This document shows positions 4,988-44,076 of a stretch of 45,074 nucleotides of DNA, piece after piece. The notes below the pieces were generated by a model. That model did no database searches and was not told where the DNA came from. It saw nothing but the letters and a program-made list of their open reading frames with translations. Every line of letters begins with the position of its first letter. Position 1 is the first letter of the stretch. The DNA is from a bacterium (lineage in GTDB: Bacteria > SZUA-79 > Acidulodesulfobacterales > Acidulodesulfobacteraceae), in the NCBI GenBank assembly GCA_027319095.1, contig DAHVNW010000014.1, forward strand, positions 1-45,074, read 5' to 3'. The translations under genes were made by a program, and so were the position numbers.

Positions 4988-5020
4988 ATAACGCATAAAC
5001 TTAAAAATACGGTTAACTTA

Positions 5021-5431: not shown

Positions 5432-5521
5432 CGATAGTCCTCCTATTTATCCAAGTATCCGGTTCGAAATCGGATACCCTTCTTTTTTTAAAGTAACAAA
5501 CATATAAAATATATAAACCGG

Positions 5522-5842: not shown

Positions 5843-5873
5843 GATAACTCTCCTTATTTTTTATTATTGGTTT

Positions 5874-6479: not shown

Positions 6480-6493
6480 AATTTAGTTTGTTA

Positions 6494-6895: not shown

Positions 6896-6948
6896 AATAA
6901 CCTCCTGTTTTGTTATGGGGATAAATTTCAAATCTGTCCCCATATTAT

Positions 6949-8247: not shown

Positions 8248-8250
8248 AAT

Positions 8251-8366
8251 TCCTCCTCACATTTAAATACATAATTAAGCCGCTTTGCGGCTTTTAAAGG
8301 CTAAGCATATTCTTCCGCTAAAAAGCAGTGCTTTTTAATGCCCGCGGAAGAATATATGCCGATCTC
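8251..8366. repeat. structured intercistronic repeat, copy 1 (nifE-nifN)
   Basis: This element has two hairpins. The first, 8308-8355, has 12-base arms ATATTCTTCCGC and GCGGAAGAATAT around a nested AAAAAGC/GCTTTTT stem. The second, about 8277-8293, is AAGCCGC-TTT-GCGGCTT. A second copy lies at 13852-14030, also inside the nif operon between two genes. On the minus strand the element supplies the last codons and stop of nifE and ends in the GAGGAGG ribosome site of nifN. Between copies the second stem changes at two positions with matching changes on the other arm. Confidence 0.85.
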
Positions 8367-9703: not shown

Positions 9704-9745
9704 TTTATTTGCCTCCGTTTAAAAATTTAAATACGAAACCAGACA

Positions 9746-11173
9746 CTATCTTAAAAGCTCGAAATGAGCATCGTCCGAAGTATCGTCGAGAATGTCTAAA
9801 AATTTATTTACAATCCATGTCGTGAGGTTTATTACGCCAGTATAGCCGTAGAGAGGATAGCGGTGAATATTAACCCTGTCGAATATTGGATATCCTACCC
9901 TGATGTGAGGAATGCCGGCATCCCTTGCGGCGAATTTGCCGTGGGACGGCCCTATTAGCATATCGGCCTTATCGGTCATCAGGAGCGATCTTAAATGCCA
10001 TAAATCTTTATCTATATAAACCTCTCCCTCGCTTGCGGAATAATTTTCGAATAAATCTTCTATTTCTTTTTTGAATTCCTCGTTGCCGTTAGAACATAAC
10101 ACATACTTGGGAATACCGCCCATTTCCAAAAGATAGCTTACAAGCCCTACCAGTAAATCCGGGTCGCCGAATACCGCAAATTTCTTTCCATGTATATACT
10201 GCTGGGCATCGGTCATGCAGTCGATGGCCTTTCCTCTTTCGTCTTCGAGCTCTTTTGGAATTTCGAGCCTTGAAATTTCGGATACCGTCATTAAAAAATC
10301 GTCGGTATAATTTATGCCTATGGGACTTTTAACTACCCTGGCATCCTGTCCTAATTTTTCGGATAAAGTCGCAACGGTTTTTTTAGTCGAATATCGCTGT
10401 AATGCAATCGTCGCCTTATTATTTGCGCACGTTTTCACATCTTCCAGCTTAGTCGCCCCTTCCGGATACATTTTATATTCGCCGTTTAGCGGATAATCCA
10501 ATGTATTGGAATAATCTGCAAGAACAAGGAATTTTGCTCCGAAAATTTTTAAAATCCTTTTAATTTCGTTAATATTGCCTAAGGTTGTGTCAAAACCCGG
10601 AATAATATTTATAACGTCTGTTTTTTCCATTCCGGCTTCGGGTTTTTTTGCAATACCTTCTATTATTGCATTGAGCATGTTATCGTAGCCTTCTAGCTGA
10701 GAGCCTACGAAACTAGGGGTATTGGCGTAAGGCGCTAAAATATCTTCTGCGAGACGCCCCTTTTCCCTTGCGTTTGCCACTATAGAACCTAAATCGTCTC
10801 CTATAATTTCAGACATACAAGTCGTCGATATAGCAAACATCTTTGGCTTATAAAGGTCGGCCGCATTTTTAAAACCTTCGAACGCGTTTGCCTGTCCTCC
10901 GAAAACCGCGCCGTCCTCGGTAAGGGACGTGCTTACGGCGGCCAAAGGCTCTCTGAAATGCCTTGAAAGATTATTTCTGTAATATGCGACGCATCCATGA
11001 GAACCGTGAACGAATGACATAGTATTTTCAAACCCTACGGCGCATAATACCGCTCCAAGCGGTTGACACGCTCTTTCGGGATTTATAACAATGGCCTGCC
11101 TGTTAAAGTTTTTTTCTTTATACTCTTCCGTGTTCATCCACTCTTTTATCTTTTTTACTTCTTCTTTTTCCAT
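9746..11173 (-). CDS. nifK: NifK, nitrogenase MoFe protein beta chain
   Basis: NifK is the beta subunit of dinitrogenase. P-cluster cysteines are at C36 (ACQPLGAVLC), C61 (GSHGC) and near 119 (STTCMSEIIGDD). The segments HFREPLAAVSTSLTEDGAVFGG and GDPDLLVGLVSYLLEMGG are typical. The frame is open to 11224, but a strong AGGAGG lies 11 bases before the ATG at 11173 and the short N-terminus (MEKEEVKKIKEWMNTEEYKEKNF) matches the family, giving 475 residues. It is transcribed after nifD and before nifE. Confidence 0.95.
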   Translation of the reverse strand: MEKEEVKKIKEWMNTEEYKEKNFNRQAIVINPERACQPLGAVLCAVGFENTMSFVHGSHGCVAYYRNNLSRHFREPLAAVSTSLTEDGAVFGGQANAFEGFKNAADLYKPKMFAISTTCMSEIIGDDLGSIVANAREKGRLAEDILAPYANTPSFVGSQLEGYDNMLNAIIEGIAKKPEAGMEKTDVINIIPGFDTTLGNINEIKRILKIFGAKFLVLADYSNTLDYPLNGEYKMYPEGATKLEDVKTCANNKATIALQRYSTKKTVATLSEKLGQDARVVKSPIGINYTDDFLMTVSEISRLEIPKELEDERGKAIDCMTDAQQYIHGKKFAVFGDPDLLVGLVSYLLEMGGIPKYVLCSNGNEEFKKEIEDLFENYSASEGEVYIDKDLWHLRSLLMTDKADMLIGPSHGKFAARDAGIPHIRVGYPIFDRVNIHRYPLYGYTGVINLTTWIVNKFLDILDDTSDDAHFELLR

Positions 11174-11271
11174 AATATCTATAACCTCCTTTTTTATGCC
11201 GGCATCCCTAAAAATATGCCCCATATCTTATATTCGTTATTTATACCTTTAAATTAAACTATGACCGTATA

Positions 11272-12708
11272 TTACTTTTTCCAGCGCGGCTTGACTAATT
11301 TCCATGCCGGGCTGTTTATGGCAAGGTCCATATCTCTTGCAAAAATTTCAAAGCCGTCGTAGCCATGGTAAGGACCGGAATAATCCCAAGAGTGCATCTG
11401 CCTGAACGGTATCCCCATTTTTTGAAAAACGTATTTTTCTTTTATGCCGGAAGCGACTAAATCCGGTTTAAGCCTGTTTGCAAGCTCAACTAACTCGTAT
11501 TCGTTCATATCGTCGGCTATGATTGACCCGTCCTCCAATTCTTTCGTCGTCCTTTCGTAATCGTCGCTATGCGCAAACTCGTATGCGGTGGCTACCACTT
11601 TCATACCTAAATCTTCATAAGCGCCTACTATATGGCGCGGCCTTAAGCCTCCTACCAGCATCATTACTTTTTTACCTTCGAGCCTTGGGCGGTATTTGTC
11701 TATTATTTGCTGCATTTTCGGCTCGTAAGATTTGATAACATTTTCGGCTTTTTCTTGAATATTCCCGTCGAATAGTTTAGCTATTTTTCTTATACTTTCC
11801 TTTATTTTAGTATGACCGAAAAAGTTATATTCAACCCATGGAATCCCGAATTTTTCTTCGAAGTGGGTCGCTATGTAATTCATCGACCTGTAGCAGTGGA
11901 GCAAAAGATAATTAACTCCGTGGGTTATTTTCATCTCTTCGATAGAACCGTCCCCCGACCAGTGGGCAACAACGTTAAGCCCCATTTCTTTAAAAATTTT
12001 CATGGAAGACCAGACGTCTCCCCCTATGTTATAGTCGCCGAGTATCGCAACGTCGTAAGGAGTTTTTTTGCTTTCGTCTATTTTGCCGGTTCCAACTACG
12101 AAATCCCTTATCGAATCGTTTGCTATATGATGTCCAAGCGACTGGCTAACCCCCCTGAAACCTTCGCATCTTACCGGAATTACCGGAATGCCTGTTTCGT
12201 CCGTCATCTTTTTTGCGACGGCTTCTATATCGTCGCCTATAAGGCCTATTGGACATTCCGATTCTATAACTATGCCTTTTGCGGTGGGAAACAATTCGTG
12301 CAGCTCTTTAATCGCCTGTTCCAATTTCTTGTCCCCTCCGAACACTATATCCCTTTCTTTAAAATCGGTCGTAAACTGAAAAGGAACAAAACTTTCGACT
12401 GCAGTTTCTCCGTTCGCGAGGTTCCTTCTCGTACCCCAGCTGTAATGGCCGCAGCCTATCGGACCGTGGCTTATATTTATTACATCCTTAACCGGTCCCC
12501 AGACGACGCCCTTAGACCCCGCATATGCGCAACCTCGCGGCGTCATAACGCCGGGGAGGGATTTTATGTTCGATTTCGCCACGCAGCTGCCGCATGTTTC
12601 GCGGCTATTAACGCCGATATGCTCTTTTCTGTTTTTTTTTGCTCTTTCGGAATAAACGCTTATAACTTCCTCGATTAATACCTCTTTTTCCTTAAAATCG
12701 ACAGCCAT
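11272..12708 (-). CDS. nifD: NifD, nitrogenase MoFe protein alpha chain
   Basis: NifD holds the FeMo-cofactor, the site of N2 reduction. The 478-residue product has P-cluster cysteines C60 (RGCAYAG), C86 ([10 protein letters not shown]) and the Cys of [12 protein letters not shown] near 152. The cofactor Cys is in CYRSMNYI and its His in [17 protein letters not shown]. The Val, Gln and His that gate substrate ([12 protein letters not shown]) and the Arg in VGGLRPRH are all present. These features mark a molybdenum enzyme, not a vanadium or iron-only one: there is also no anfG/vnfG gene after it. An extra CGSC near residues 39-42 precedes the first ligand. Confidence 0.96.
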
Positions 12709-12782
12709 TTTTTATACCTCGCCTTAATAGGGATGGATTTTTGTCCCTTTTATTATTTATTTTATTGTCGTTATTTTATTTT

Positions 12783-13082
12783 CTAGTTTTTAACGAGCGG
12801 AGAAAATTTATGTAAATGCATAGTTTTATTTTTTGGACATACTTTCTCGCAGCATGTATCGCCGATACAATTATCCAAACTTTCAATTTTTACGATCATC
12901 TTGTCTCCGTCGTCCTCAAATATATAAACTCCTCCCGGACAAACCTTAATGCATCTTCCGCACGATATGCAATTTTCCTGGTCGAATTCCACAAGAAAGT
13001 GCGGAACCCATTTACCGCCGGAACGCCTCGGCGCGCTGACGTAATCTTCCACGTTTCCCTTAAAACCTGCCATAATGCTCAT
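12783..13082 (-). CDS. fdxB: nif-specific 2[4Fe-4S] ferredoxin (FdxB/ferredoxin III-like)
   Basis: The 99-residue product resembles nif-specific ferredoxin III: GGKWVPHFLVEFDQENC leads into a classical C-x2-C-x2-C-x3-C-P motif (CISCGRCIKVCP). The second motif is non-standard, CIGDTCCEKVCP, with four residues between the first two cysteines and two adjacent cysteines. It may form a cluster with altered spacing. It probably supplies electrons to nitrogenase or to NifB/NifEN. It overlaps the upstream methyltransferase gene by 23 bases, so the two are probably translationally coupled. Confidence 0.8.
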   Translation of the reverse strand: MSIMAGFKGNVEDYVSAPRRSGGKWVPHFLVEFDQENCISCGRCIKVCPGGVYIFEDDGDKMIVKIESLDNCIGDTCCEKVCPKNKTMHLHKFSPLVKN

Positions 13083-13845
13083 ATTTATCTTGCCCCCTTT
13101 TAAATATTCTTATCCTTAAATCGAGTCCGTCCGCAATTATTTCGCAATTATCCTTCAGACCGGCATCTTTTAAATATTTTTCATACTCGCCTATATCTAA
13201 AGAACAGTTTAATTTGCGTCTTAAAGAATTCGCCTTTTGCAGCTTCATATCTTTTGTGAGAAAATTAAACTCATCTTCCGCTATATCCTTCCTAAATTCA
13301 TAAATGAAAACTTCTCCGCCTGGACTTAATACCCTGTATATTTCTTTTAAGGAATTTTGCTTATCTTCCAAACATTTAAACGTCCCTTTAAGTATTATTA
13401 AATCGAATAAACAGTCCTCGAAAGGAAGATTGGAGCTGTCGGCAACGATATATTTCAGCCTGTAATTGCTTAAATAACCTTCATTTCTTAACATGGCAAA
13501 TGCTTCTTTATATGCTTTATGCGTTATGAATGCGACTTGTTTTTTAAAAATATCCCTGACAACTTTTTCGGCATGATTAATCATAACCGGCGATTTATCG
13601 GCTCCGAAAACCGAAGAATTAGGCAAAACCTCGCATATTCTTCTTGCTATATAGCCGGGACCGCAGCCCAGATCAAGAATCCTCGACGGGATGAAGGAAA
13701 TATCGTTTAAAACTTTATCTACGAAAGGAATATAATCTTCCTCCATTTTTATTTTAGTATCGCTTGTCGCTATATAAAGCTCTTCGTCCTGAGAAAAACT
13801 TATAGCTTTTGAAAGCTTGCAACCTAATACGCCGACGTCTTGCAT
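13060..13845 (-). CDS. class I SAM-dependent methyltransferase in the nif operon
   Basis: The 261-residue protein has a class I methyltransferase domain: motif I ILDLGCGPGYIARRI, an acidic end of strand 2 (GADKSP), the post-I segment IVADSSNLPFED and motif IV LIILKGTFKCLED. The C-terminal part (about 190-260) is unassigned. The start at 13845 follows AGGAGG at a spacing of 6; the longer frame from 13860 begins inside that ribosome site. The gene lies between nifB and the ferredoxin gene and overlaps the latter, so it belongs to the nif transcript. No methyltransferase is known in the core nitrogenase assembly path; the substrate is unknown. Confidence 0.8.
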   Translation of the reverse strand: MQDVGVLGCKLSKAISFSQDEELYIATSDTKIKMEEDYIPFVDKVLNDISFIPSRILDLGCGPGYIARRICEVLPNSSVFGADKSPVMINHAEKVVRDIFKKQVAFITHKAYKEAFAMLRNEGYLSNYRLKYIVADSSNLPFEDCLFDLIILKGTFKCLEDKQNSLKEIYRVLSPGGEVFIYEFRKDIAEDEFNFLTKDMKLQKANSLRRKLNCSLDIGEYEKYLKDAGLKDNCEIIADGLDLRIRIFKRGQDKYEHYGRF

Positions 13846-13997
13846 TTTAAGCCTCCTCACATTTAAATATTATAATTAAGTCGTTTCACGACTTTTAAAA
13901 AGTAAATGTTCGTCGATCTCACATTTAAATATTATAATTAAGTCGTTTCACGACTTTTAAAAAGTAAAAATATTCTTCCGCTAAAAAGCTATACTTT

Positions 13998-15858
<1,861 letters not shown>

Positions 15859-28375: not shown

Positions 28376-29932
28376 TTAGAACGCTATTCTTGCCTGTATG
28401 AAATAGGCATTGGTCTGACCCATCCACTGACCAAAATCCAGATAATTAGGATTGCTCGACGGCAAACTCTTATAATCTTTTGCATATAGATACTGGAAAT
28501 TCTGCCAATCGGCGGTTAACGTTATATGGCTGTTAAGATGATAGGCTATGCCGGCGACCGTTCTTTGAAAGTCGAAAGGATTGCCGGAAGGCAAACCTTG
28601 TCCTGCCGCATTATAATTGGCAGTGGCATAATAATATCTTTGGATTAGACCGAATAAGCCGAATTTGCTGTTCGGAATATTATAATACCCGAATGCATCG
28701 TAACCGTGAGATGCGATATTATTATTGTTATATACCGATGTCACGGAAGGTTCGGTAGCGCTTGTATAACAACCGTAAATGTTTTTTTCTATTCCGCAAT
28801 AACTATATTCATCGCTACTTTGACCGGCGCCGGGGTTAACGGTATGATTTATGGCATAATCGTATTGCAGTGCAATATTGGCGTTAGGAGTTTTATAATC
28901 CAACACTCCCGAAATCCTTGTTTCCGGATGATTGCCGCTGCCGGCGACGGCATTGCCAAAACCGCCGCCGTCTTGCGCCCACGCGTAATATCCGCTTATA
29001 CTGAGCCCGTTTAAACCAGAATCTGCCCCCATAGGATAAAAAGTCAATCTTGCCTGGGGAGATTTCTGGTCGACGGTTTCATCTGCATGAAATGCGGCAT
29101 TATCGAAAAATCCCGCATTATACGCCATATATATCTTTCCGTTCGACCTGTATTTACCGGATACCCCTAAACCGGCCTGCGTCGAGGTTACGTTTAAAAA
29201 ACCCCACGGCGTTCTTTCGGCTACGTGATAGCCTAATAAGCCGTCTTCCCATGCTACCATCGGCGTAGGAAACTGACCGGCTTTTAAGTTAACCGTTAAG
29301 CCGTTAGCGTCGTAAACGTGATTAAACTGCAGGAAAGCATATTTAAGCCTAAAATACTCGTTGCCTCCGGTAGCACCGCTATTATTAGACTTAAAAAAGT
29401 TTGGCGTAACCTTTAAAAACCAGTTGTCCTGGTGATACAGAAATATCAAATACGCCCTGTTCACGTTAAATGCGTTGTATCCGTTATTGCCGGTTGCTGG
29501 AGGGTTTTCTTCAAGCTGCATCGAGCCCTCGGTAAGACCGGTCTGCGTATAATACCCGTATCCCATATAAACTAACGCCCCAAGAGAAACATGTTTCGTC
29601 CATGACGGAAGGGTCTTGCCCTTTACTGTTTTTAGCGAAGTTTCGAGTTTCTTTTCTCTTGCTTTAATATTATTAATCTGGCGCGCCGTTTTTTTAGTGT
29701 TTTGTTTCAATAATTGATTGATAACGCCTTGCCCGACTTTCACCCTTCCCTGTCCCGGTTTTAAAAATATCTCGCCCGTATTCGGGTTTTCGTAAAGGGC
29801 GGCGTCCGATGCATAAGCTATTCTTACCGCACCGAAAATAAAGACTAATGCCGATACCGCAAAAAAGACAAGAACGAAAGTCGAAATAGAATATAACCGC
29901 ATCGTCTTTTTTGTTTTGTAATGTGGGTTCAT
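28376..29932 (-). CDS. outer-membrane porin with N-terminal coiled coil
   Basis: The 518-residue product has a long signal peptide (hydrophobic about 14-38, cleavage probably after AYAS near 42), a short coiled coil (about 75-105, KQNTKKTARQINNIKAREKK) and a predicted beta-barrel of alternating strands, with NAFNVNRAYLIFLYH and KVTPNFF, ending in the aromatic ARIAF that directs outer-membrane insertion. This resembles porin_O/P-type barrels. A strong AAAGGAGG supports the ATG at 29932. The upstream region carries four 7-base repeats in a Pho-box-like layout, which would fit phosphate or anion uptake, but substrate is unproven. Confidence 0.78.
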   Translation of the reverse strand: MNPHYKTKKTMRLYSISTFVLVFFAVSALVFIFGAVRIAYASDAALYENPNTGEIFLKPGQGRVKVGQGVINQLLKQNTKKTARQINNIKAREKKLETSLKTVKGKTLPSWTKHVSLGALVYMGYGYYTQTGLTEGSMQLEENPPATGNNGYNAFNVNRAYLIFLYHQDNWFLKVTPNFFKSNNSGATGGNEYFRLKYAFLQFNHVYDANGLTVNLKAGQFPTPMVAWEDGLLGYHVAERTPWGFLNVTSTQAGLGVSGKYRSNGKIYMAYNAGFFDNAAFHADETVDQKSPQARLTFYPMGADSGLNGLSISGYYAWAQDGGGFGNAVAGSGNHPETRISGVLDYKTPNANIALQYDYAINHTVNPGAGQSSDEYSYCGIEKNIYGCYTSATEPSVTSVYNNNNIASHGYDAFGYYNIPNSKFGLFGLIQRYYYATANYNAAGQGLPSGNPFDFQRTVAGIAYHLNSHITLTADWQNFQYLYAKDYKSLPSSNPNYLDFGQWMGQTNAYFIQARIAF

Positions 29933-30346: not shown

Positions 30347-32623
30347 TTATTCTTCCGCGGATTTTTTAACCTGCAAAAGTTTTTTCGTTATATCTATGAA
30401 AAGAACCAAAACGCCTATGCTGAAAACTATATCTCCGGGCATCCTTAACCAGAGCCATATGTTGGTCTTTTCGTAAAAATAGATGCTTCTCGAATACCAG
30501 TAGCCGTGTTTAATCGAAGCAGCGAACTGCAAAAAGCCTTCCGGCAGGAAATTAAGAATAACCCATAAAATCATGCCTACGTTAAAACACCACAGGGCTG
30601 CCCTTCCGGCTCCTTCCGACCATTTGGAAGGTTCGACTATCATTCTAAGCACATAATAAGACAAAGCGATGCCAAGAAGGCCGAACACGCCGAATAAAGC
30701 GGTATGTCCGTGGTTTATCGTTAAATACTGCCCGTGTTCGTAGTAGTTTGCAAGGGGGGAATTAATCAACGAACCGAACACGCCGGCTCCAATAAAGTTC
30801 CAGAATGTCGAAGCTTCTAAATACTTAAACGACAAATCTTGCGGAAAATCTTTGCCTGCTTTTATGAGAATATTTTTCTCGAAAACCGCCTGCATCGTTA
30901 AAAGCAGCAGTGGAATAACCTCGAGAAACGAAAACATTGAGCCGAGCGCAATCCATATCGAAGCGTCGCCTATAAAGTAAAAATGGTGTCCCGTTCCTAC
31001 TATGCCGCCTAAAAATATCAGGATTATTTCGAGTAGCAGGGTGTTTTCGATGGTAGTTCTTTTTACGAGTCCCTGCGAAAGAAAGAAATAACCGATAACG
31101 ACGACTGCAAAGAATTCAAACGTCCCTTCGACCCATAGATGAACGACCCACCATCTCCAAAAATCGGTAATCGTCCAGTTTTTAAGTATCCATGCAAGCG
31201 GAAACATTCCGAATATATACATTATGCCGATAGTTACGGCGCTTATTAAAAGCAGTCTTTCGACGCTCCATTTATCGGCATTTTTTATGAAGTGTGGTTT
31301 TAACGCCCTGTAAAGTATTACTACCCACAAAAGCAAGCCTACGAATACTACGAGCTGATTAAGCCTCCCAAGTTGTAAATACTCGAGACCCTGATTGCCT
31401 ATAAAAAACCATAAACCGTTATGGAAATATCCCTTTGCCCCTAAATACATCCCGACGAGAGCCGCAACTCCGTCGATTAACAGCGCCCACCACAGAAAAT
31501 CGATTAAAAAAGACTGCCATTTTGCTTCTCTGCCGCCGCCTATATATTTTGATACGAATATGCCGGCGCCGAGCCAGGTGGAAGCTATAAACAGAATCGC
31601 AAGCTGGATATGCCACGATTTTACTATGTTAAACGGCAGCGCCGTCAGAGTATTAATTCCGAAAAAAGAAGCTCTTTCGGCATAATAATGGGCAAGGAGC
31701 ATTCCGGCTATAATCTGCAAACCCAGCAAAAAAACTCCGAGAAAAAAGAATTTGGCGGATTTTTTCATCGAATGGGTAATTTTAAAATTATTCAAGTCCA
31801 TGGGCTTCCAATTATCGAGAAGCGCAGGGGCTTCCTCCCAGCCGGGCGCGATATAGTTGAGGAAAAACCAGATGATAAGGCCGGCCAGAGCGATAAAAAC
31901 GGTATATCCCGCAAAAGTCCAGGTATATAGATACGTCGGCGGAGTATTGCCGGCTCCAATGCTATAGGGCCAGTTGTTGGTATAAGTATGGCCTGCCCCT
32001 GGTCTTAAAGTCGAAGCGCTCCACGCCGCCCATGAATAAAATTCCGCTATTTTTTCTATATCGCGCTTTGAAGGAACTAAATCCTTGCCTATACCGAGAT
32101 TTCGGTCGCCGTTTGTATATAGATTTTCTAATCTTTTTTGAATTTTATTAAAGGCGTATATCTCGCCGGGGGTGTACTTCAAAAGTTTGCTTGCGGGAGA
32201 AAATCTGTTTTTCTTTATTTTAGATATTACGAGGGATTTTATATAATCCTTATCCCTCGGCGAAATTTGCGCGTAAGGCTTTTTATAAAGCTTTCGAGCT
32301 TCAAAATCCCTGTAGTACTTAACCTCCCTGTGAATATACTGAGCGGTAAAATCTGGTCCGAAATACGCGCCGTTACCGTAAATAGAACCGTAATCCATAA
32401 GGTCGAACTCCTGAAACCTTGCCTTTCCGGCGACGATATCTTTTCCGTTAAAGACGGCCTTGCCCTTTTGGGTAACTATCTTAGCAGGTATAGGCGGCGC
32501 TCCGTAATATACCTTGAACGTTCCGTAAACTAATATGGCTACGAGAATAATAACAGTCAGCGATAAAGTAATTTTTAAAAATTTATTTACCGCTTTTTCG
32601 TCATAATAAATGCTTTTTTCCAT
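30347..32623 (-). CDS. norB: quinol-dependent nitric oxide reductase (qNOR)
   Basis: qNOR reduces 2 NO to N2O with electrons from quinol. The roughly 757-residue protein has an N-terminal membrane helix and a cytochrome-c-like domain without heme (about 40-220), then about 12-13 helices. Quinol-site residues are kept (AHYYAER), and so are the heme/FeB ligands: WHIQLAIL, WWVVHLWVEGTFEFF, GTGHHFYF with both histidines, and NHGHTALFG. Both His of GTGHH argue against the related NO dismutase, in which a ligand is replaced. The ATG at 32623 follows AGGAGG by 4-5 bases; the upstream frame to 32641 starts in that site. It follows the cytochrome c gene. Confidence 0.92.
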   Translation of the reverse strand: MEKSIYYDEKAVNKFLKITLSLTVIILVAILVYGTFKVYYGAPPIPAKIVTQKGKAVFNGKDIVAGKARFQEFDLMDYGSIYGNGAYFGPDFTAQYIHREVKYYRDFEARKLYKKPYAQISPRDKDYIKSLVISKIKKNRFSPASKLLKYTPGEIYAFNKIQKRLENLYTNGDRNLGIGKDLVPSKRDIEKIAEFYSWAAWSASTLRPGAGHTYTNNWPYSIGAGNTPPTYLYTWTFAGYTVFIALAGLIIWFFLNYIAPGWEEAPALLDNWKPMDLNNFKITHSMKKSAKFFFLGVFLLGLQIIAGMLLAHYYAERASFFGINTLTALPFNIVKSWHIQLAILFIASTWLGAGIFVSKYIGGGREAKWQSFLIDFLWWALLIDGVAALVGMYLGAKGYFHNGLWFFIGNQGLEYLQLGRLNQLVVFVGLLLWVVILYRALKPHFIKNADKWSVERLLLISAVTIGIMYIFGMFPLAWILKNWTITDFWRWWVVHLWVEGTFEFFAVVVIGYFFLSQGLVKRTTIENTLLLEIILIFLGGIVGTGHHFYFIGDASIWIALGSMFSFLEVIPLLLLTMQAVFEKNILIKAGKDFPQDLSFKYLEASTFWNFIGAGVFGSLINSPLANYYEHGQYLTINHGHTALFGVFGLLGIALSYYVLRMIVEPSKWSEGAGRAALWCFNVGMILWVILNFLPEGFLQFAASIKHGYWYSRSIYFYEKTNIWLWLRMPGDIVFSIGVLVLFIDITKKLLQVKKSAEE

Positions 32624-32740
32624 AAGCCCTCCTCTTTTCATTTATTACAAGTTAATTTAATTAAAACGAATAACTATTCATTAATATTATGAATTTTATA
32701 CTTTTCATCCTTCTTTTTACTTTTTTAATTATTTGCTTAT

Positions 32741-33163
32741 TTATTTTTCCGTTTTATTTTTTATTTCCTGCGCTTTTTTCAGTTCCTCGGTTATAGTTTT
32801 TCTGTCTTCTTTGCTTAATTTATTAAACATCAATACGAAATACATGGTTCCGGACGGATACTTTAAAAAGTTATTAACGTTCTCCCTGTAAACCTTTTCG
32901 ACGTCGGAGTATGCGCCGGATAGGTCCGGTCCGACGTGTCCGCCCTTAATGCCGAGAACTTTTATATTATGGCATCTGACGCATCCTAATTTATAAAATA
33001 TATTTTCCCCTGCCGCAACGCTAACCTTTTTAGTATTTAATCCTATTCCGTCGGATACTTTTAAGGAATAATATAAACCTATAAGGGATAAAGCAACGAT
33101 AAGAACAAACATCAAAAGAACGGGCGCCCATATGGTTAAAAATTTTTTACTTATTTTCGGCAT
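32741..33163 (-). CDS. membrane-anchored monoheme cytochrome c, NorC-like
   Basis: The 140-residue protein has one N-terminal anchor (about 10-33) and a single heme site CVRCH (near residue 60), followed by GGHVGPDLSGAY and a probable Met ligand in YPSGTMYF. This resembles NorC-type or small cbb3-type donor cytochromes. It is the promoter-proximal gene before the quinol NO reductase; qNORs normally need no cytochrome partner, so it may be an alternative donor or electron exit. It is under a -41.5 Fnr-type site. Confidence 0.85.
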   Translation of the reverse strand: MPKISKKFLTIWAPVLLMFVLIVALSLIGLYYSLKVSDGIGLNTKKVSVAAGENIFYKLGCVRCHNIKVLGIKGGHVGPDLSGAYSDVEKVYRENVNNFLKYPSGTMYFVLMFNKLSKEDRKTITEELKKAQEIKNKTEK

Positions 33164-33222
33164 AATAATAATACTATTTAATAAAACTCCGTTATAAATT
33201 TAAATTGGTTCGAGTTTATTAA

Positions 33223-33264
33223 ATTATAAAAAATTTAAAAAATAAGCGTTATGACTTTTATCAC
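33223..33264 (-). promoter_or_regulatory. Fnr/Dnr-type class II promoter of the cytochrome c-qNOR operon
   Basis: On the minus strand GTGATAAAAGTCAT (complement of 33251-33264) is an Fnr/Dnr-like site (TTGAT-N4-ATCAA type). TATAAT (complement of 33223-33228) predicts a start at 33216, putting the site's centre at -41.5 exactly, the class II activator position. Confidence 0.82.
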
Positions 33265-33295
33265 ATTTCATTTTTTATAAAATTATTTTATTAAT

Positions 33296-33337
33296 GTGAT
33301 AAAAATCATATATTAAACGTTTAAAATTCGGGATAAT
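33296..33337 (+). promoter_or_regulatory. Fnr/Dnr-type class II promoter of DUF2249-RIC genes
   Basis: GTGATAAAAATCAT (33296-33309) is followed by the -10 GATAAT (33332-33337). The predicted start is 33344, so the site centre lies at -41.5, the mirror arrangement of the divergent cytochrome promoter. Confidence 0.82.
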
Positions 33338-33391
33338 AAAATTATAAATTAAAAAATAAATAACGGAAATTTAAAATTCGGGGGTAAAAAA

Positions 33392-33637
33392 ATGGGAACG
33401 GAAGGGAATAACGGCTCTATAACTTTGGACGTAACGGCTATAGAACCTAAATATAAACATTCGACGATATTTAAAATATTAGGGGAACTTGAACGCGGCA
33501 AAAGCCTTGTAATCGAAAACGACCACGACCCCAAGCCTTTGCATTATCAGCTTACCGCGGAGAACGGAGACGCTTTCGGATGGGAATATATTGAAAACGG
33601 GCCGGTTAAATGGGTCGTTAAAATTACAAAAAAATAA
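33392..33637 (+). CDS. DUF2249 domain protein
   Basis: The 81-residue protein matches the DUF2249 pattern: LDVTAIEPKYKHSTIFKILGEL, then IENDHDPKPLHYQL and FGWEYIENGPVKWVVKI. This small TusA-like fold is regularly found beside hemerythrin-type NO-response proteins and NO reductases, where its function is unsettled. It precedes the RIC gene by 34 bases in the same unit. Confidence 0.88.
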   Translation: MGTEGNNGSITLDVTAIEPKYKHSTIFKILGELERGKSLVIENDHDPKPLHYQLTAENGDAFGWEYIENGPVKWVVKITKK

Positions 33638-33671: not shown

Positions 33672-34361
33672 ATGGAAAACAATGGGGATTCTTTGCTTTC
33701 AAAGAGCGTAGGCGAAATTGCATCGGAAAATCCCGAAAAAATAGGAATATTTAAAAAATATGGAATAGATTTTTGTTGCGGAGGGTCTAAAAGTTTAAAA
33801 GATGCATGCGAAGAATATGGTATCGACGGGATGCTTATAATTGAAGAATTAAATAAAGCCTGCAATTTGGAAGCGGACGACGAAAAAAATTTTTCGTTAA
33901 GTAAAAAAGTAAACGATTGGAACGTGAATTTTTTGATAGATTATATAATAAATATACACCATACATTTTTAAGAATACATATTCCCGAAGCGTCGGAATA
34001 CGTTGAAAAAATTGCAAACGTCCACAGTAATCGTCATCCCGAACTTATAAAAATAAAAGAACTTTATACAAAAATGTCGGAAGCGTTGATTTTACATTTA
34101 GATAAAGAAGAAAAATTCTTGGCGGATATAAAAACCGGAAATTCTTCCGATACGAAAAAAGAAATAGGCGATGCCGTGTATTATCATGAATATGTCGGGC
34201 ATATTCTTAAAGAAATGAATTTTTTAAGTTCGGGTTATTCTATTCCTCCAGACGCATGCGCTTCTTATAAACATGCGTACGAACTCTTAAGAGAGGTTTC
34301 GGACGATATTATGATCCATATCCATTTAGAAAACAACGTTCTTTTTAAGAAAATAGGATAA
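33672..34361 (+). CDS. ric: RIC, di-iron protein for repair of iron-sulfur centres
   Basis: RIC (YtfE/ScdA/DnrN) repairs Fe-S clusters damaged by NO and oxidants. The 229-residue product has the ScdA N-terminal domain with GEIASENPEKIGIFKKYGIDFCCGG (about 12-36) and a C-terminal hemerythrin-like four-helix domain whose metal-binding His/Glu occur in NIHHTFLRIHIPE, HSNRHPEL, LHLDKEE, YYHEYVGH and MIHIHLENNVLF. It is co-transcribed with DUF2249 and divergent from the NO reductase. Nitrogenase and the many Fe-S enzymes in this genome are natural clients. Confidence 0.93.
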   Translation: MENNGDSLLSKSVGEIASENPEKIGIFKKYGIDFCCGGSKSLKDACEEYGIDGMLIIEELNKACNLEADDEKNFSLSKKVNDWNVNFLIDYIINIHHTFLRIHIPEASEYVEKIANVHSNRHPELIKIKELYTKMSEALILHLDKEEKFLADIKTGNSSDTKKEIGDAVYYHEYVGHILKEMNFLSSGYSIPPDACASYKHAYELLREVSDDIMIHIHLENNVLFKKIG

Positions 34362-37574: not shown

Positions 37575-38765
37575 TTATTTATCCCTCGTTAAAACGGTTC
37601 TGCTTCTTACCGGCTCATAGATGCAGTAAGGCTCTTCTTCCATATAGTTTCCTTTTTCGTAATAAGCCCTTGCCCTGCATCCTTCGCATACTTTTTTGTA
37701 TTCGCAAATTCCGCATTTTCCCTTTAAAAGTTCCGTGTCCCTTAAATTAAGAAAAACCTCCGAGCCGCTCCAAATTTCCTCTGCAGATTGCTTGGTAACA
37801 TCTCCCGCCTGAACCGGAAGATAACCGCAGGGCTGAACTATACCTTTTCTTGAAATAAACATAACGCCGCTTCCGGCCAGACAACCTTTGGTCACCGCAT
37901 TCATGCCGTGCGTTTCAGGAGTTATTTTAATGCCGGCATCTTTTGCCTTTTTATGCATTATCCTAAAAAAATGAGGGGCGCAAGTCGCTTTAAGCTCCAT
38001 TTTGCCCTTTAATTCCATAGTCTTATCGTAAAACCACGAAAGTATATCTTCGTATTTTTGCTTATCCAACATTTGAGAATCGGCTATCTGGACTCCGCAT
38101 CCCACAGGCACGAGCATAAATATATGAAGCGCTTTTATGTTGTTTTTCAAAGCCAATTCAAGAATATCCTTTACTTCATTTTCGTTATGCCTTGATATGG
38201 TAGTATTTATTTGAACCTCTATTCCTTCGTTTTGCAAATTTTTTATTCCGTTAAAAGCGCTGTCGAAAGAGCCTGGTATCATCCTAAAAGTATCGTGGGT
38301 GCGCGCGTTAGAACCGTCAAGACTTATGGAAACTCTTTTTATTCCGCTTTCCTTAATGCGTTTTGCCGTACCTGCGTCAACAAGGGTTCCATTAGTTGCA
38401 AGGGCTACCCTTAAACCTTTTCCGGCGGCATATCCTGCTATTTCAAAAATATCGTCCCTGTAAAGCGGTTCTCCTCCTGTTAAAATTAGTATAGGGCTGC
38501 TAAACGTGCAAAGTTCGTCAATCACGTTAAAACATTTTTCGGTGGGAAGCTCGTCTTCCTGTCTTTCGGTCCTGGCCTCCGCCCTGCAATGGATACATTT
38601 TAAATTACATCTTGCGGTAAGTTCCCAGAAAACCAATCTTAGTTCGTTTTTTTTCGGCATCCCGCCATGCATAGCGCCCGGATATCCGCCCTGTCCGGCA
38701 GTATTCCCCATATTGGAAGGGCGGCTCAAGAAATGCCGGGCATCGGTATTATTATTTTGCATCAT
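37575..38765 (-). CDS. ahbD: AhbD, heme synthase of the siroheme pathway
   Basis: AhbD is a radical SAM enzyme that turns Fe-coproporphyrin III into heme b by oxidative decarboxylation. The 396-residue product has WELTARCNLKCIHCRAEA (radical SAM cluster), GGEPLYRDDIFEIAGYA, INTTISRHN, KATCAPHFFRI, THGMNAVTKGCLAG and the C-terminal SPASM cysteines (CGICEYKKVCEGCRARAY), all AhbD features. The ATG at 38765 follows AGGAG by 7 bases; the frame from 38780 starts within that site. It overlaps ahbC by 14 bases. Confidence 0.9.
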   Translation of the reverse strand: MMQNNNTDARHFLSRPSNMGNTAGQGGYPGAMHGGMPKKNELRLVFWELTARCNLKCIHCRAEARTERQEDELPTEKCFNVIDELCTFSSPILILTGGEPLYRDDIFEIAGYAAGKGLRVALATNGTLVDAGTAKRIKESGIKRVSISLDGSNARTHDTFRMIPGSFDSAFNGIKNLQNEGIEVQINTTISRHNENEVKDILELALKNNIKALHIFMLVPVGCGVQIADSQMLDKQKYEDILSWFYDKTMELKGKMELKATCAPHFFRIMHKKAKDAGIKITPETHGMNAVTKGCLAGSGVMFISRKGIVQPCGYLPVQAGDVTKQSAEEIWSGSEVFLNLRDTELLKGKCGICEYKKVCEGCRARAYYEKGNYMEEEPYCIYEPVRSRTVLTRDK

Positions 38766-39945
38766 CGTATATCTCCTCATCCGTCAAATAACAAGCAGGG
38801 TCAGGCGCCCATAAATCGCCCTCTTTAGCTTCAGACCTTACGCGAAAATTACCGTTACAAATATCGAGCCATTTACAGTTTTTACACTTTCCCTTTACGT
38901 ATTCCTTTTTGTTTTTAAGCTGTTTCATTAACGGATTGGAGGTATCCGTCCAAATTTCGCTGAATTTTCTTTCTTTGACGTTTCCGAAGGAATTATGCCT
39001 CCAAAACTGGTCTGCATAGACTTCGCCGTTCCAGCTTACGCATCCTATTCCAACCCCGGAACTGTTGCCGCCGTTCATTTTAAGCAGGCTCATGACATTA
39101 GCCGCTTCTTCCGTTTTTCCTTCTTTTAAAAGCTTTAGGTAAATATAAGGGCCGTCGGCATGATTATCGACGGTAAGGACCTCTTTTTGATTATCTCTGG
39201 AATATACTTCTTTAGTAAATTCAAGTATAGTATCGACGGTGTTTCTCGTTTCTTCGTGAGATAAATCTTCTTCCATCAACTTAGTTCCTCTTCCCGAATA
39301 AACAAGGTGATAAAAGCATACTCTTGGAATATTTTCTTCTTCCAGCAATTTAAAAATACCAGGAATTTCGCCGGCGTTTCTTTTATTTATGGTAAATCTA
39401 AGCCCTACCTTGATTCCTGCTTCTTTAGCATAGTTTATGCCGTTAATCGCTTCCTTAAAAGCGCCTTTTTTGCCCCTGAACCTGTCGTGTACGGATTCGA
39501 GCCCGTCAAGGCTTATGCCTACATACGACAAGCCGACTTTTTTTAATTCCAGGGCAAGTTCTTTAGTTATAAGGGTGCCGTTTGTAGAAATAACCGCCCT
39601 CATGCCTTTCGACTTTGCATAAAAACACAGGTCGAGAAAATGTGGATGCATTAAAGGTTCGCCTCCCGAAAAAAGCATAACCGGCGACCCGAAAGCGGAA
39701 ACGTCATCTATGAAAGCCTTTCCTTCTTCAAGCGAAAGCTCGTCGTTGTACTGAACGTTTTTAGACTGGGAATAGCAGTGAACGCAGTTTAGATTGCATG
39801 TTCTCGTCATATTCCAGACTATTACCGGTTTTTTATCTTCCGAAAACTGCAAAAGATGCGAGGGCAGCTTGCTCGACATGCGCCCGTACCTAATAGCATC
39901 AGAAGCATGAACGCCGCCGCAGTAAAGTTTCGAAATTCCTATCAT
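38752..39945 (-). CDS. ahbC: AhbC, 12,18-didecarboxysiroheme deacetylase
   Basis: AhbC removes two acetate side chains from didecarboxysiroheme to give Fe-coproporphyrin III. The 397-residue product starts MIGISKLYCGG...LPSHLLQFSEDKKPVIVWNMTRTCNLNCVHCYS, the AhbC hallmark with its radical SAM Cys triad, then LFSGGEPLMHPHF and C-terminal auxiliary cluster cysteines (CKNCKWLDICNGN). It is encoded between cobA-hemD and ahbD in the order of the pathway. ahbA and ahbB, needed for the first step, are not in the window. Confidence 0.92.
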   Translation of the reverse strand: MIGISKLYCGGVHASDAIRYGRMSSKLPSHLLQFSEDKKPVIVWNMTRTCNLNCVHCYSQSKNVQYNDELSLEEGKAFIDDVSAFGSPVMLFSGGEPLMHPHFLDLCFYAKSKGMRAVISTNGTLITKELALELKKVGLSYVGISLDGLESVHDRFRGKKGAFKEAINGINYAKEAGIKVGLRFTINKRNAGEIPGIFKLLEEENIPRVCFYHLVYSGRGTKLMEEDLSHEETRNTVDTILEFTKEVYSRDNQKEVLTVDNHADGPYIYLKLLKEGKTEEAANVMSLLKMNGGNSSGVGIGCVSWNGEVYADQFWRHNSFGNVKERKFSEIWTDTSNPLMKQLKNKKEYVKGKCKNCKWLDICNGNFRVRSEAKEGDLWAPDPACYLTDEEIYDDAK

Positions 39946-39961
39946 TTATATCGTTTCCTTT

Positions 39962-41641
39962 TTACTTTTTTATTTTTCTATCGGCAATTTTTGGTTTTAA
40001 TGTATTATAAAATTCTACTATGCCGTCGACCAAAGAATCTATATTAACGTCTTTAGATATTATATCAGATTTTATACCGAATCCCAACGCATACTCGGCA
40101 GTCTTTTTTCCTATGCTTGCAAATCTGACGCCTGACCTTATAACTTTTTTTAAAAGCCCTTTTTCGATATTTTCCAGCTCCTTAGTAAAATTCTCGACTG
40201 TTGAATAGCTCGTAAAAGTTACGATAAGCGATTTTAAGTCTAAATTATCCGGCAAACCTATATTTTTACCAATTTTTTTATTTTCATTAAACGCAAAAAT
40301 TTTGCCCAGCGATTCTTTCGAATCTTCCGGCAATACGGTTTCGTAAACCGGCAAATTTTCTAAATCGGATCCTTTAGACTCGAGAAATTCGGGAAGTTCT
40401 CTATTAATTTTTAAAGCCTGGGGAAAAAGAATTTTTTTTCCATTAAGGTCGGTATCTTTTAATATGTCTATTATTCCTGTCTGCGAAGGTTCGGTTGGAA
40501 CAATATCTGGAACTATACCATATTTTTTCAACTCGGAAGAAGAAACTTTGCCTAAGGAAATAATTTTCTTGCCGGAAAGCGCTCTGACATCGATTCCTTT
40601 TGAAAAATAATGTTCAAAAAATGCTGAAACAGCGTTTGCGCTGGTAAAAATAAGATAGTCGTATTTTCCGATATTTTCAACCGCACTATCGATTTTAGCC
40701 ATATTTACGCCGTCGCCGTCTTTCAAAATCTTTATAAGCGGCAGGCTAATTACAAAAGCGCCGAGTTTTTTAAGTTTCTCCGACAGGGTATCTGTCGTCT
40801 GCCCCTCGCCTCTGGTAACAATCACTTTTAAACCGGATAACGGCCTGTTCTCGAACCAATTTAACGCGTTTCTCAATTTTACTACATTGCCTACTATTAA
40901 TATAAGCGGGCTTTTAAATCCCCTTTTTTCGGTTTCGCCCGCTATAGTGCCTAACGTTGCGGCCGCGGCTTTTTGATTTAATGTAGTCCCTTCCTGAATA
41001 ACGGCACATGGAGTATTTTTATCCTTTCCGGCTTTAATTAAATTTTTAGTATTGGAATCTAAATTTTTATATCCCATAAGTATGACTATGGTATCGGCTC
41101 CCGCTAACCCTTTCCAATCTATGGTGCTTTTTTCTTTATGGTCGCCCTCATGTCCGGTAACGATTGCTACGGTAGAAGCATAATCCCTGTGGGTCAAAGG
41201 TATTCCGGCATAAGCCGGAACGGCAAAAGACGACGATATTCCGGGTATTATTTCAAAAGGAATGTTGTCCTTAAAAAGCCTTTCCGCTTCCTCGCCGCCT
41301 CTTCCAAAAAGATAAGGATCTCCTCCTTTAAGCCTTAATACGATATTATTGTTTTTTGCTTTTTCGGCAAGAAGCTCGTTTATGGAATATTGCGACAGAA
41401 CGTGGTTTGAAGACCTTTTTCCCGCATAAATTATTTCGCATCCCTCTTTGGCGTAAGACAATATCTCCTCCGAAATCAAGCTATCATATACTATTACGTC
41501 CGCCTCGCCCAATATCCTTCTCGTTTTTAAAGTAAGGAGTTCCGGATCGCCCGGTCCTGCGCCCGCAAGATAAACTTTCCCCCGTTTAGCGTTGTTCTTA
41601 AGTTCTTGCTTAATATCTTTTTTAATTTCTTTCGCCTTCAT
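39962..41641 (-). CDS. cobA-hemD: uroporphyrinogen-III methyltransferase / uroporphyrinogen-III synthase fusion
   Basis: The 559-residue protein joins two enzymes. The N-terminal SUMT domain (about 18-260: KVYLAGAGPGDPELLTLKTRRIL, VLRLKGGDPYLFGRGGEEAE, GIPLTHRDYASTVAIVTGHE) methylates uroporphyrinogen III towards precorrin-2. The C-terminal half (about 268-550: GLKVIVTRGEGQTTDTLSEKL, YLIFTSANAV, VPTEPSQTGIIDIL) is HemD. One gene thus makes and methylates the macrocycle, feeding siroheme and hence the AhbCD branch. It is 16 bases from ahbC and 57 from hemC. Confidence 0.93.
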   Translation of the reverse strand: MKAKEIKKDIKQELKNNAKRGKVYLAGAGPGDPELLTLKTRRILGEADVIVYDSLISEEILSYAKEGCEIIYAGKRSSNHVLSQYSINELLAEKAKNNNIVLRLKGGDPYLFGRGGEEAERLFKDNIPFEIIPGISSSFAVPAYAGIPLTHRDYASTVAIVTGHEGDHKEKSTIDWKGLAGADTIVILMGYKNLDSNTKNLIKAGKDKNTPCAVIQEGTTLNQKAAAATLGTIAGETEKRGFKSPLILIVGNVVKLRNALNWFENRPLSGLKVIVTRGEGQTTDTLSEKLKKLGAFVISLPLIKILKDGDGVNMAKIDSAVENIGKYDYLIFTSANAVSAFFEHYFSKGIDVRALSGKKIISLGKVSSSELKKYGIVPDIVPTEPSQTGIIDILKDTDLNGKKILFPQALKINRELPEFLESKGSDLENLPVYETVLPEDSKESLGKIFAFNENKKIGKNIGLPDNLDLKSLIVTFTSYSTVENFTKELENIEKGLLKKVIRSGVRFASIGKKTAEYALGFGIKSDIISKDVNIDSLVDGIVEFYNTLKPKIADRKIKK

Positions 41642-41697
41642 TAAAATTTGTACCGTTCTTCTTAAAATAAAAAATTATTAACCATATGTTGTTTTTA

Positions 41698-42663
41698 TTA
41701 GCTATTATTCTTGCTTAATATTTCAAAAGCGCCTTTACTTATTAGTTTTAAAGCTAAACTTTTTCCAGCGCTTTCATAATCGTCTTTTTTACCTTCAAAA
41801 TCCCCCTCTAAATATTCGCCTTGAACGTTAGAAACGAAACCTTTAATACGCAAAACATCGTTTTTAACATAAGCATAGGCTCCCACAGGAGAAGCGCATC
41901 CGCAGTTTAGTTCCCTTATGCAGGCTCTTTCGGCAAAAACAGCCGCATAGGTTTCCTGGTCGTTTAAAGGGGCGATTTTTTCTTTCATATCCTCCCTGCC
42001 GGTTCTATGCTCAATGGCTATTGCGCCCTGACCGCACTGGGGAATAAATTTAACGGGGTCTAAATATACGCCTATGTTATTTTCGAGATCAAGCCTTATT
42101 AGTCCGGAAGAGGACAAAACTATAGCATCGAAAAAACCTTTTTTAAGCTTCTCTATCCTCGTATCTATGTTTCCCCTTAACGGTTCGAATATAAAGTCGT
42201 CTCTTAATCTTGCCATTAAAGACCTTCTTCTTAAGCTTGAAGTTCCCACGATTGCGCTTTTTTTTAACAGTCCCGCAAAATTTCCGGAATAATTTTCTAA
42301 AGATTTTTTAGGTTTAGCGCTTAAAATTACGCAGTCTCTCGGATCGTCCCTTTTTAAAACTGCGCCTAAGGTTAAACCGTCAGGTACGAGCTGCGGAACG
42401 TCTTTTAAGCTGTGAACCGCGATGTCGATTTCTCCGCTAAAAAGCGATTCTTCTATTTCTTTAACAAACAGGCCTTTGCCTCCGAAGCTGCTCAAAGATG
42501 CGTTTAAAATCTTGTCGCCCGATGTTTTTATAGCTATTATTTCTATATCTATGCCTTCATCCTTTGCATTCTTTCCGCTACATTGCGCTGTAAGCCTCTC
42601 TTTCACTAAGTTAGCCTGATACAGCGCAAGCTTACTGCCTCTCGTCCCTATTTTAAGTTTCAA
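41698..42663 (-). CDS. hemC: HemC, hydroxymethylbilane synthase
   Basis: HemC polymerises four porphobilinogen molecules. The 321-residue product has KLKIGTRGSKLALYQANLVKE at the start, VAHSLKDVPQLVPDGL, IVGTSSLRRRSLMARLRDD with the substrate-binding arginines, GQGAIAIEHR and the cofactor-binding Cys in NCGCASPVGA. The length is normal. It lies between hemA and cobA-hemD with a 15-base gap to hemA. Confidence 0.95.
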   Translation of the reverse strand: MKLKIGTRGSKLALYQANLVKERLTAQCSGKNAKDEGIDIEIIAIKTSGDKILNASLSSFGGKGLFVKEIEESLFSGEIDIAVHSLKDVPQLVPDGLTLGAVLKRDDPRDCVILSAKPKKSLENYSGNFAGLLKKSAIVGTSSLRRRSLMARLRDDFIFEPLRGNIDTRIEKLKKGFFDAIVLSSSGLIRLDLENNIGVYLDPVKFIPQCGQGAIAIEHRTGREDMKEKIAPLNDQETYAAVFAERACIRELNCGCASPVGAYAYVKNDVLRIKGFVSNVQGEYLEGDFEGKKDDYESAGKSLALKLISKGAFEILSKNNS

Positions 42664-42678
42664 AATTTACCTTTTATT

Positions 42679-44076
42679 TTATTTCACAAGTTTTATTTTG
42701 GTTTTATTATCCGCCGCTTCTAAGCGGTATTTCCTTGCGGCTTCATTTTCTTTTTCAATCCCGTTTTCGTCTTCCGTTAAATCTATCGAATCTAAGTTAA
42801 AAAGGGCTTTTATAGCCTTAAGCGAATTTACGCCGTCAGTCTCGGAAGAAGATTTTTTAATAAGCATGGTAGGCTCGTGGAGTATCTTGTTGGTCAAAGA
42901 ATTTATTATTAAGTCCTTTTCGTTTTTGTCGCCTATATGCATCGATAATTCCGTTTCGAGTATGTCTTTTATTTTATTTCTTAACGAAATTATAACAGGC
43001 ACCGCATTTAAGGATTCCTTCCAGTCCATAAACTCTTTGGCGGCGATATCTACGAGTTTCTTTGCCTCCTCGGCTTCCTGATTTCTGATTTCCATATTGT
43101 TCTCTATCATCCTGCCGATATCGTCGATATCGAACAGATAGACATTCGGTATCTTATTGATTTCAGGGTCGATATTCCGCGGCATGGAAATATCTATTAA
43201 AAATAACGGCCTTTGTTTTCGTATTTTTATTAGCGGCTTAATATCTTCGTATTTCAAAACATAGTCTTCGGAACCGGTGGAACATAAAACTATATCGAAG
43301 TTCGGAAGAAGCTTATAATATTCCGAAAAATCTATGACGTTTAATTGCTCTTTTTCTGCCACCCCAAAAGATTCCTCTACAAACCTTAGCGCCTTCTCTT
43401 TAGTCCTGTTTGTAATATAAATATTCTTTAACCCGTATTTTATAAAATGTTTCACTGTAAGTTTACCCATCTCTCCGGTTCCCAAAAAAAGAACTTTTTT
43501 TTCTTCCAATACGTTAAAAATCTTCTTCGAAAGCTCAACCGCGGCATAACTGACCGACACAGGGGAAGCCGCTACTTTAGTTTCCGTTCTTACCGTTTTT
43601 GCACAATTAAAAGCCTTATGAAATAATTTGTTTAAAAGCTGTCCGCTTGCTTTTAGCCCGCACGCTTCGTTATATGCCACTTTAAGCTGTCCGAGTATCT
43701 GCGGTTCGCCTACAATCATGGAATCCAAGCTGGACGCTACGCAAAATAAATGCTTTACGGCACCCTCATTTAGGTACATATAAAAAATATCTTCTTTCGC
43801 GGCATCTCCGAAAAAATATTTCGCAACGTAATTTTTAACTACATGTCCGCCTTTACCTGGCGCCCATGAAGACAAACTCATTATAAATTCCGACCTGTTG
43901 CAAGTCGTCAAAACTACTATCTCTTTAATAAAAGGTCTGCCGAATTCGTCTTTTACGGCTAACAGTTCGTTTGTAAAATCCTTTCTCGACTCTAATGAGA
44001 GAAGTTTTTTGGAAACGCTTTCTCTTTCATGTATTTCCGCCGATTTATGACTTAATCCGATTATTAAAATATCCAT
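42679..44076 (-). CDS. hemA: HemA, glutamyl-tRNA reductase
   Basis: HemA commits glutamyl-tRNA to tetrapyrrole synthesis. The 465-residue product has GLSHKSAEIHERE, the catalytic cysteine in VVLTTCNRSEFIM, GEPQILGQLKVAYNEA, the NADPH-binding VLFLGTGEMGKL and the C-terminal dimerisation helices. The C5 pathway is therefore used. The C-terminus is somewhat longer than in E. coli. It follows the HemX/CcsA-like gene after 30 bases. Confidence 0.95.
   Translation of the reverse strand: MDILIIGLSHKSAEIHERESVSKKLLSLESRKDFTNELLAVKDEFGRPFIKEIVVLTTCNRSEFIMSLSSWAPGKGGHVVKNYVAKYFFGDAAKEDIFYMYLNEGAVKHLFCVASSLDSMIVGEPQILGQLKVAYNEACGLKASGQLLNKLFHKAFNCAKTVRTETKVAASPVSVSYAAVELSKKIFNVLEEKKVLFLGTGEMGKLTVKHFIKYGLKNIYITNRTKEKALRFVEESFGVAEKEQLNVIDFSEYYKLLPNFDIVLCSTGSEDYVLKYEDIKPLIKIRKQRPLFLIDISMPRNIDPEINKIPNVYLFDIDDIGRMIENNMEIRNQEAEEAKKLVDIAAKEFMDWKESLNAVPVIISLRNKIKDILETELSMHIGDKNEKDLIINSLTNKILHEPTMLIKKSSSETDGVNSLKAIKALFNLDSIDLTEDENGIEKENEAARKYRLEAADNKTKIKLVK

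Follow-up and report, generated by a model that had tools for sequence, protein, structure and literature searches.

Divergent, putatively class II promoters between NO reductase and RIC operons, and a predicted order-wide N-oxide regulon in the Acidulodesulfobacterales

Introduction

Sites of the Fnr/Dnr type carry the half-site TTGAT (PMC1274295). HcpR1, on the contrary, bears R, E, and R at positions 1, 2, and 6 of its recognition helix and binds TGTGA-N6-TCACA (PMC5701242). On the protein side, an arginine at CRP position 180 has been tied to the G, and E181 to the A, of TGTGA (Rodionov 2005, PMC1274295). HcpR controls RIC (dnrN) and norB in some other taxa (PMC1274295, PMC5701242), and for the HcpR of P. 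gingivalis Met68 and possibly His149 have been proposed as haem ligands (PMC12750200).

Here, we describe an intergenic region within a 45,074-nucleotide stretch of DNA, referred to as the window, from a bacterium of the Acidulodesulfobacteraceae. Its order probably comprises acid-mine-drainage bacteria, and we know of no cultured model for it. Expression of norB and nosZ has been reported in one Ca. Acidulodesulfobacterales member (PMC6776010), and the gene content and small, AT-rich genomes seen here agree with that order. The original prediction for this DNA had placed mirror-image Fnr/Dnr class II promoters between the NO reductase and RIC genes and had named a Crp/Fnr protein encoded at 3385–4017 as a candidate Dnr-like NO sensor.

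Two sites between divergent operons

The features of the region are as follows.

30347–32641, minus strand: NO reductase, long qNOR-like type with cytochrome domain (norB/norZ; PF22085 7e-52, PF00115 4e-48)
32741–33163, minus strand: monohaem cytochrome c (CxxCH) with a membrane anchor, opening gene of the NO reductase operon (Pfam PF00034, translation)
33223–33228, minus strand: TATAAT, the −10 element for NO reductase, with its +1 predicted at 33216
33250–33265, minus strand: putative activator site 1, 16-mer TGTGATAAAAGTCATA, serving the predicted cytochrome c–NO reductase promoter, centre 33257.5 = −41.5
33251–33264, minus strand: 14-mer of site 1, GTGATAAAAGTCAT, read from sequence
33295–33310, plus strand: putative activator site 2, 16-mer TGTGATAAAAATCATA, serving the predicted DUF2249–RIC promoter, centre 33302.5 = −41.5
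33296–33309, plus strand: 14-mer of site 2, GTGATAAAAATCAT, read from sequence
33332–33337, plus strand: GATAAT, the −10 element for DUF2249–RIC, with its +1 predicted at 33344
33392–33637, plus strand: 81-aa DUF2249 protein, opening gene of the repair operon (PF10006 2e-22)
33672–34361, plus strand: RIC / YtfE / ScdA di-iron Fe-S cluster repair protein (TIGR03652, PF04405, PF01814)

Exact matches to GTGATNNNNRTCAT in the 45-kb window are confined to sites 1 and 2. At both promoters, the 16-mer lies 21 bp from the −10 element, and a discriminator of 6 bp—an ordinary length—places the centre at −41.5 from the inferred +1, exactly as originally claimed for the starts predicted by TATAAT and GATAAT. 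The promoter-proximal half of the conserved 16-mer is the weaker one (TCATA). The RIC protein scores 1.2e-59 and 201.8 bits against TIGR03652, about 3 bits short of the cut-off of 204.7; despite this, its predicted identity appears strong. In the relative G001 (L173, G001:C25, complement of 96-1214), DUF2249 and RIC form one fused protein behind a class II site, and this fusion ties DUF2249 to RIC function.

Several other genes of the window deserve mention. Downstream of NO reductase lies a 518-aa protein (28376–29932) without Pfam match that looks like an outer-membrane porin and has a clear homologue adjoining RIC in G012. Close to the NO reductase operon, 37575–44076 holds hemA, hemC, a hemD/cobA fusion, and radical SAM proteins with an AhbC match above cut-off and an AhbD match of 486 bits (cut-off 500); these genes appear to encode the siroheme-dependent route to haem b. 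Nitrogen fixation genes are found at 5000–15800, where genes for four proteins of the nitrogenase component 1 type cluster with one for a P-II regulator.

Conservation among relatives

Thirty genomes of the order served for comparison, with a genus subset of 16. NO reductase was detected in 10 of the 30, and both sites are present in 8 of the 9 regions excised around it (source genome counted), these being the 8 compared genomes with the NO reductase–RIC gene pair. Pairwise identity amounts to 95% and 97% for the sites, 96% for the plus −10, and 63.5% for the remaining intergenic DNA. The site-to-(−10) distance is constant at 21 in the 8 genomes, apart from one minus-strand −10 that is off by one. 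Because sites and −10 elements keep this distance in orthologous regions and recur at equal spacing in relatives, the two-site observation is more than chance.

The distance from site to site, on the other hand, drifts without helical phasing (45, 46, 46, 47, 51, 54, 57, and 60 bp in the 8 genomes). As the −10 spacing is fixed while the site-to-site distance varies, each promoter is expected to have a site to itself. The two operons are separated in G011, where NO reductase and RIC each have their own site in front, and in G012, G018, G021, and G024 RIC or its partner retains the site, with a different gene on the opposite side and NO reductase not adjacent. The mirror-image arrangement of the original prediction hence bears no mechanistic meaning, since the spacing from one site to the other is unconstrained and either half can be found on its own in relatives.

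Class II geometry

Every offset after the 16-mer was scored for TATAAT likeness in seven unrelated gene groups with 52 sites. Offset 21 is the top −10 position in six of the seven groups and ranks third in nosZ, whose promoters fit the −10 rule poorly. At least four of six TATAAT matches are found at offset 21 for 48 of the 52 sites, at offset 20 for 1, and at offset 22 for 4; none of 100,000 nulls from random whole-group shifts reaches the observed offset peak. The best −35 match to TTGACA is 2–3 of 6 in 50 sites and 4 of 6 in the other 2. Fixed spacing with a predicted centre at about −41.5 thus comes with a weak or absent −35, as in class II promoters. With 48 of 52 sites having the −10 at one offset, class II activation is therefore suggested, and the arrangement of site and −10 appears to be that of activator-dependent class II promoters. 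The class II geometry put forward for the two window promoters is upheld by the offset 21 peak across gene groups together with the fixed spacing in relatives.

Motif and candidate regulator

Conservation extends over a 16-mer, TGTGAY-N4-RTCAYA, whose half-site TGTGA is of the Crp/HcpR type and not TTGAT. As TGTGAYNNNNRTCAYA, it has 49 matches listed in the 16 genomes of the genus versus 1 for the reversed control, with palindromes counted on both strands. The strict Fnr/Dnr box TTGATNNNNATCAA occurs once in the whole genome and not at the window promoters, and Fnr/Dnr box specificity was rejected on account of this single occurrence elsewhere. Recognition of the TTGATnnnnATCAA type, which marks Dnr, is not what these sites and the arginine at position 180 display. 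With conserved TGTGA half-sites and this arginine, the Fnr/Dnr label of the original prediction fails and, judged from motif and helix, should be replaced by CRP/HcpR-type specificity. One perfect palindrome, TGTGATAAAAATCACA, has near-identical surroundings in L142 (G026:C48) and L191 (G005:C227), which belong to different genera; this shared sequence may be a mobile element or a binning contaminant.

The candidate regulator has the following features.

3385–4017, minus strand: 210-aa protein, the genome's only regulator of the Crp/Fnr family and candidate activator at both promoters (PF00027, PF13545)
3481–3498, minus strand: recognition-helix codons R-E-V-V-S-R, residues 174–179 = CRP positions 180–185 (R180/E181/R185 rule, PMC1274295)

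Its matches to PF00027 (2.6e-20) and PF13545 (3.7e-13) both exceed the cut-off and place it in the Crp/Fnr superfamily. The sensor-domain model and the HTH model agree on one such protein in the source genome, which favours the regulator originally proposed; its helix contains the E-x-x-S-R noted before, and the protein lacks not only the cysteine cluster but any cysteine. Orthologues occur in 27 of the 30 genomes of the order, including every one of the 19 with completeness of 90% or more and little contamination, and a second Crp/Fnr protein is absent from most of these; a distant second paralogue exists in some relatives and is absent from the source genome. The regulator went undetected in three incomplete genomes (78–86%) that do have sites.

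The recognition helix AREVVSR is invariant in the 27 orthologues. REVVSR provides the R, E, and R of HcpR1 at helix positions 1, 2, and 6, and TGTGAY-N4-RTCAYA conforms to the HcpR1 motif. Since this helix bears an arginine at CRP position 180, a TGTGA half-site is predicted, as found. The agreement between helix and motif would lend independent support to the pairing of regulator and sites, short of proof of binding. In a phmmer comparison, actinobacterial CRP ranked above DNR and CooA, and the E. coli-type CRP equivalog model gives 77.4 bits versus a cut-off of 266.

The regulator gene is unlinked to its proposed targets. No site of the TGTGAY-N4-RTCAYA type lies upstream of it in the source genome or in the orthologues, and autoregulation was rejected for this reason. 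The one Rrf2 protein of the genome was set aside because the published NsrR motif (PMC1274295) is unlike the TGTGA site.

Members of the predicted regulon

Matches to the 16-mer are nearly all intergenic and lie ahead of a few recurring genes; pattern matches L014, L170, L177, L178, L194, and L195, located inside coding genes, were discarded. Targets in the genus are the NO reductase operon, DUF2249/RIC, a 140-aa COX1-like protein, and a CBS-HPP operon, joined in other genera by hcp (PF03063) and nosZ (PF18793). The control of hcp that characterizes HcpR1 is predicted for relatives, where sites with a class II −10 precede hcp in G001, G002, and G009; among the best model matches in the source genome there is no hcp site.

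In the CBS-HPP pair, a protein with two CBS domains (PF00571) is encoded ahead of a membrane protein of the HPP family (PF04982); the pair stands behind a conserved site in G000:C124 near 17687 (L200) and in many relatives. HPP proteins are linked to nitrite transport by Maeda 2014, as cited in PMC7438415, and the pair is a candidate for a regulated nitrite transporter. Another widespread member is the 140-aa membrane protein with likeness to one part of COX1 (MSPxIRYFT...), seen in G000:C22 near 23420 (L202) and also in L020, L022, L186, and others. In the source genome, a protein of ~305 aa without Pfam family is encoded after a thioredoxin-reductase-like gene (trxB); its gene has a site ahead of it in two further genomes.

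Twenty-six sites, all from genomes other than the source genome, served to train a sequence model of 49 positions. In the source genome it ranks the window promoters first, with E-values of 1e-7 and 8.5e-7—a rank that is partly due to descent, as the training set includes orthologues of the window sites. CBS-HPP (0.002), trxB (0.046), and COX1-like (0.10) come next, and the matches checked below the latter fall in or near unrelated genes. The trxB and COX1-like promoters owe their credibility to gene identity, their E-values being weak alone. The site thus recurs in the source genome and in relatives, as model matches in the former and as the 49 matches listed in the genus. The original proposal that one signal governs NO reduction and Fe-S repair gains from the same motif standing before both operons and recurring before functionally coherent genes.

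Sensing

How such a regulator might perceive its signal is less apparent. The N-terminal cysteine cluster that holds the [4Fe-4S] of Fnr is missing from the cysteine-free 3385–4017 protein. Some of the 27 orthologues have K or R in place of its single histidine, H144, and in the set as a whole not one His, Cys, or internal Met is invariant. Hence, the haem-NO chemistry of HcpR and Dnr would here be without obvious ligands, and the case for NO as the signal comes from the target genes rather than from the protein. What is invariant is a pocket motif, SFND-T-F-----PASAD, which we take to differ from cAMP-type pockets such as that of E. coli CRP. A Dnr-like haem NO sensor, as originally suggested, is therefore an unproven identity for this protein. 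Still, we lean toward an N-oxide as the direct or near-direct signal. More speculatively, and with considerable doubt on our side, the NO/N-oxide defence of the whole order might stand under one Crp/Fnr protein that has neither Fe-S cysteines nor conserved His, Cys, or Met haem ligands and that senses N-oxides or their metabolic consequence by a mechanism undescribed for the superfamily.

Proposed mechanism and alternatives

Sites, spacing, gene set, conservation, and the regulator as only Crp/Fnr protein are observed in the sequence. We infer that the 3385–4017 protein binds the sites and activates transcription, with NO or another N-oxide as the signal. A dimer of this 210-aa protein would bind each TGTGAY-N4-RTCAYA site, centred at −41.5, and recruit RNA polymerase to a promoter with a good −10 but no usable −35. 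The divergent promoters would work independently, one toward the cytochrome c–NO reductase operon and the other toward DUF2249–RIC, and both would belong to a small order-wide N-oxide/nitrosative-stress regulon of NO reductase, RIC/DUF2249, CBS-HPP, COX1-like, hcp, nosZ, and the thioredoxin-reductase-like gene. We regard these divergent, independent class II promoters under the 3385–4017 protein, within such a regulon, as highly probable.

The most substantial alternative keeps this protein as the activator and changes its signal, which could be a nucleotide, some other metabolite, or the redox state; the NO genes would then be induced within an anaerobic or redox response. It draws on the lack of conserved haem or Fe-S ligands, on the occurrence of the protein throughout the order, genomes without detected NO reductase included, and on a pocket presumably unlike the cAMP type. 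The targets, however, almost all handle NO, N2O, or nitrite or deal with nitrosative damage, and Tyr, Lys, or main-chain haem ligands are conceivable; this alternative is quite possible, and we would rather not favour it. That a Dnr/Fnr-type regulator with TTGAT specificity drives both promoters via haem-bound NO is an unlikely reading: norB, nosZ, and RIC are under DNR or HcpR control elsewhere (PMC1274295) and E-x-x-S-R is present in the helix, but TGTGA half-sites, the solitary TTGATNNNNATCAA, the arginine at helix position 180, and the want of a conserved His, Cys, or internal Met as haem ligand argue otherwise.

Two further readings concern how the sites are used. Judged by the coordinates in the source genome, each site is at the same time placed at −86.5 relative to the other promoter, as a cooperative pair or a loop across the intergenic region might use it. 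Yet the 45–60 bp drift lacks helical phasing, and RIC keeps its site without an adjacent NO reductase in four relatives, with the operons of G011 separated and a site at each; joint action is very improbable, and cooperative pairing was rejected because the site-to-site distance is not conserved. Another factor reading TGTGA-N6-TCACA-like palindromes could instead use the sites as a repressor. In sulfate reducers, Rex and HcpR1 have been reported to share identical binding sites (PMC5701242), but no Rex DNA-binding domain was detected in the source genome, and a fixed −41.5 position combined with poor −35 boxes matches the needs of an activator, which leaves a repressor such as Rex with hardly any probability.

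For an uncultured order, this amounts to a testable, predicted regulon in which a single candidate regulator is named and operators and promoters are located exactly. It places uncharacterised genes in N-oxide metabolism—DUF2249, the CBS-HPP pair, the 140-aa COX1-like protein, and the about 300-aa protein without Pfam family—and poses a concrete sensing puzzle in a candidate regulator without conserved haem or Fe-S ligands.

Comparison with known systems

Class II promoters of E. coli CRP share the TGTGA-N6-TCACA-like site at −41.5, a position predicted here, and the weak −35. Unlike in E. coli CRP, the residues of the phosphate-binding cassette appear replaced in the 3385–4017 protein, and control by cAMP would not be expected. 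For the regulons of denitrifying proteobacteria, we take COG4309 to be the equivalent of DUF2249. There, DNR and NnrR activate nor and nos genes, and DUF2249-like genes accompany norB (PMC1274295). These regulators combine a TTGATnnnnATCAA-type motif with a haem sensor, in contrast to the TGTGA motif and the absence of conserved haem ligands here.

Desulfovibrio HcpR1 (TGTGA-N6-TCACA; PMC1274295, PMC5701242) is alike in being a Crp/Fnr protein with an R-E-x-x-x-R helix, a CRP-like motif, and nitrosative-stress genes including hcp as targets. It binds haem and is autoregulated, whereas the regulator gene described here is unlinked and has no upstream site, and its product has no conserved His or Cys. 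Unlike for HcpR1, the targets here are norZ, RIC, CBS-HPP, and COX1-like with strict class II placement. Taken together, the comparison points to a known kind of system in the form of a lineage-wide N-oxide regulon that appears conserved across the order.
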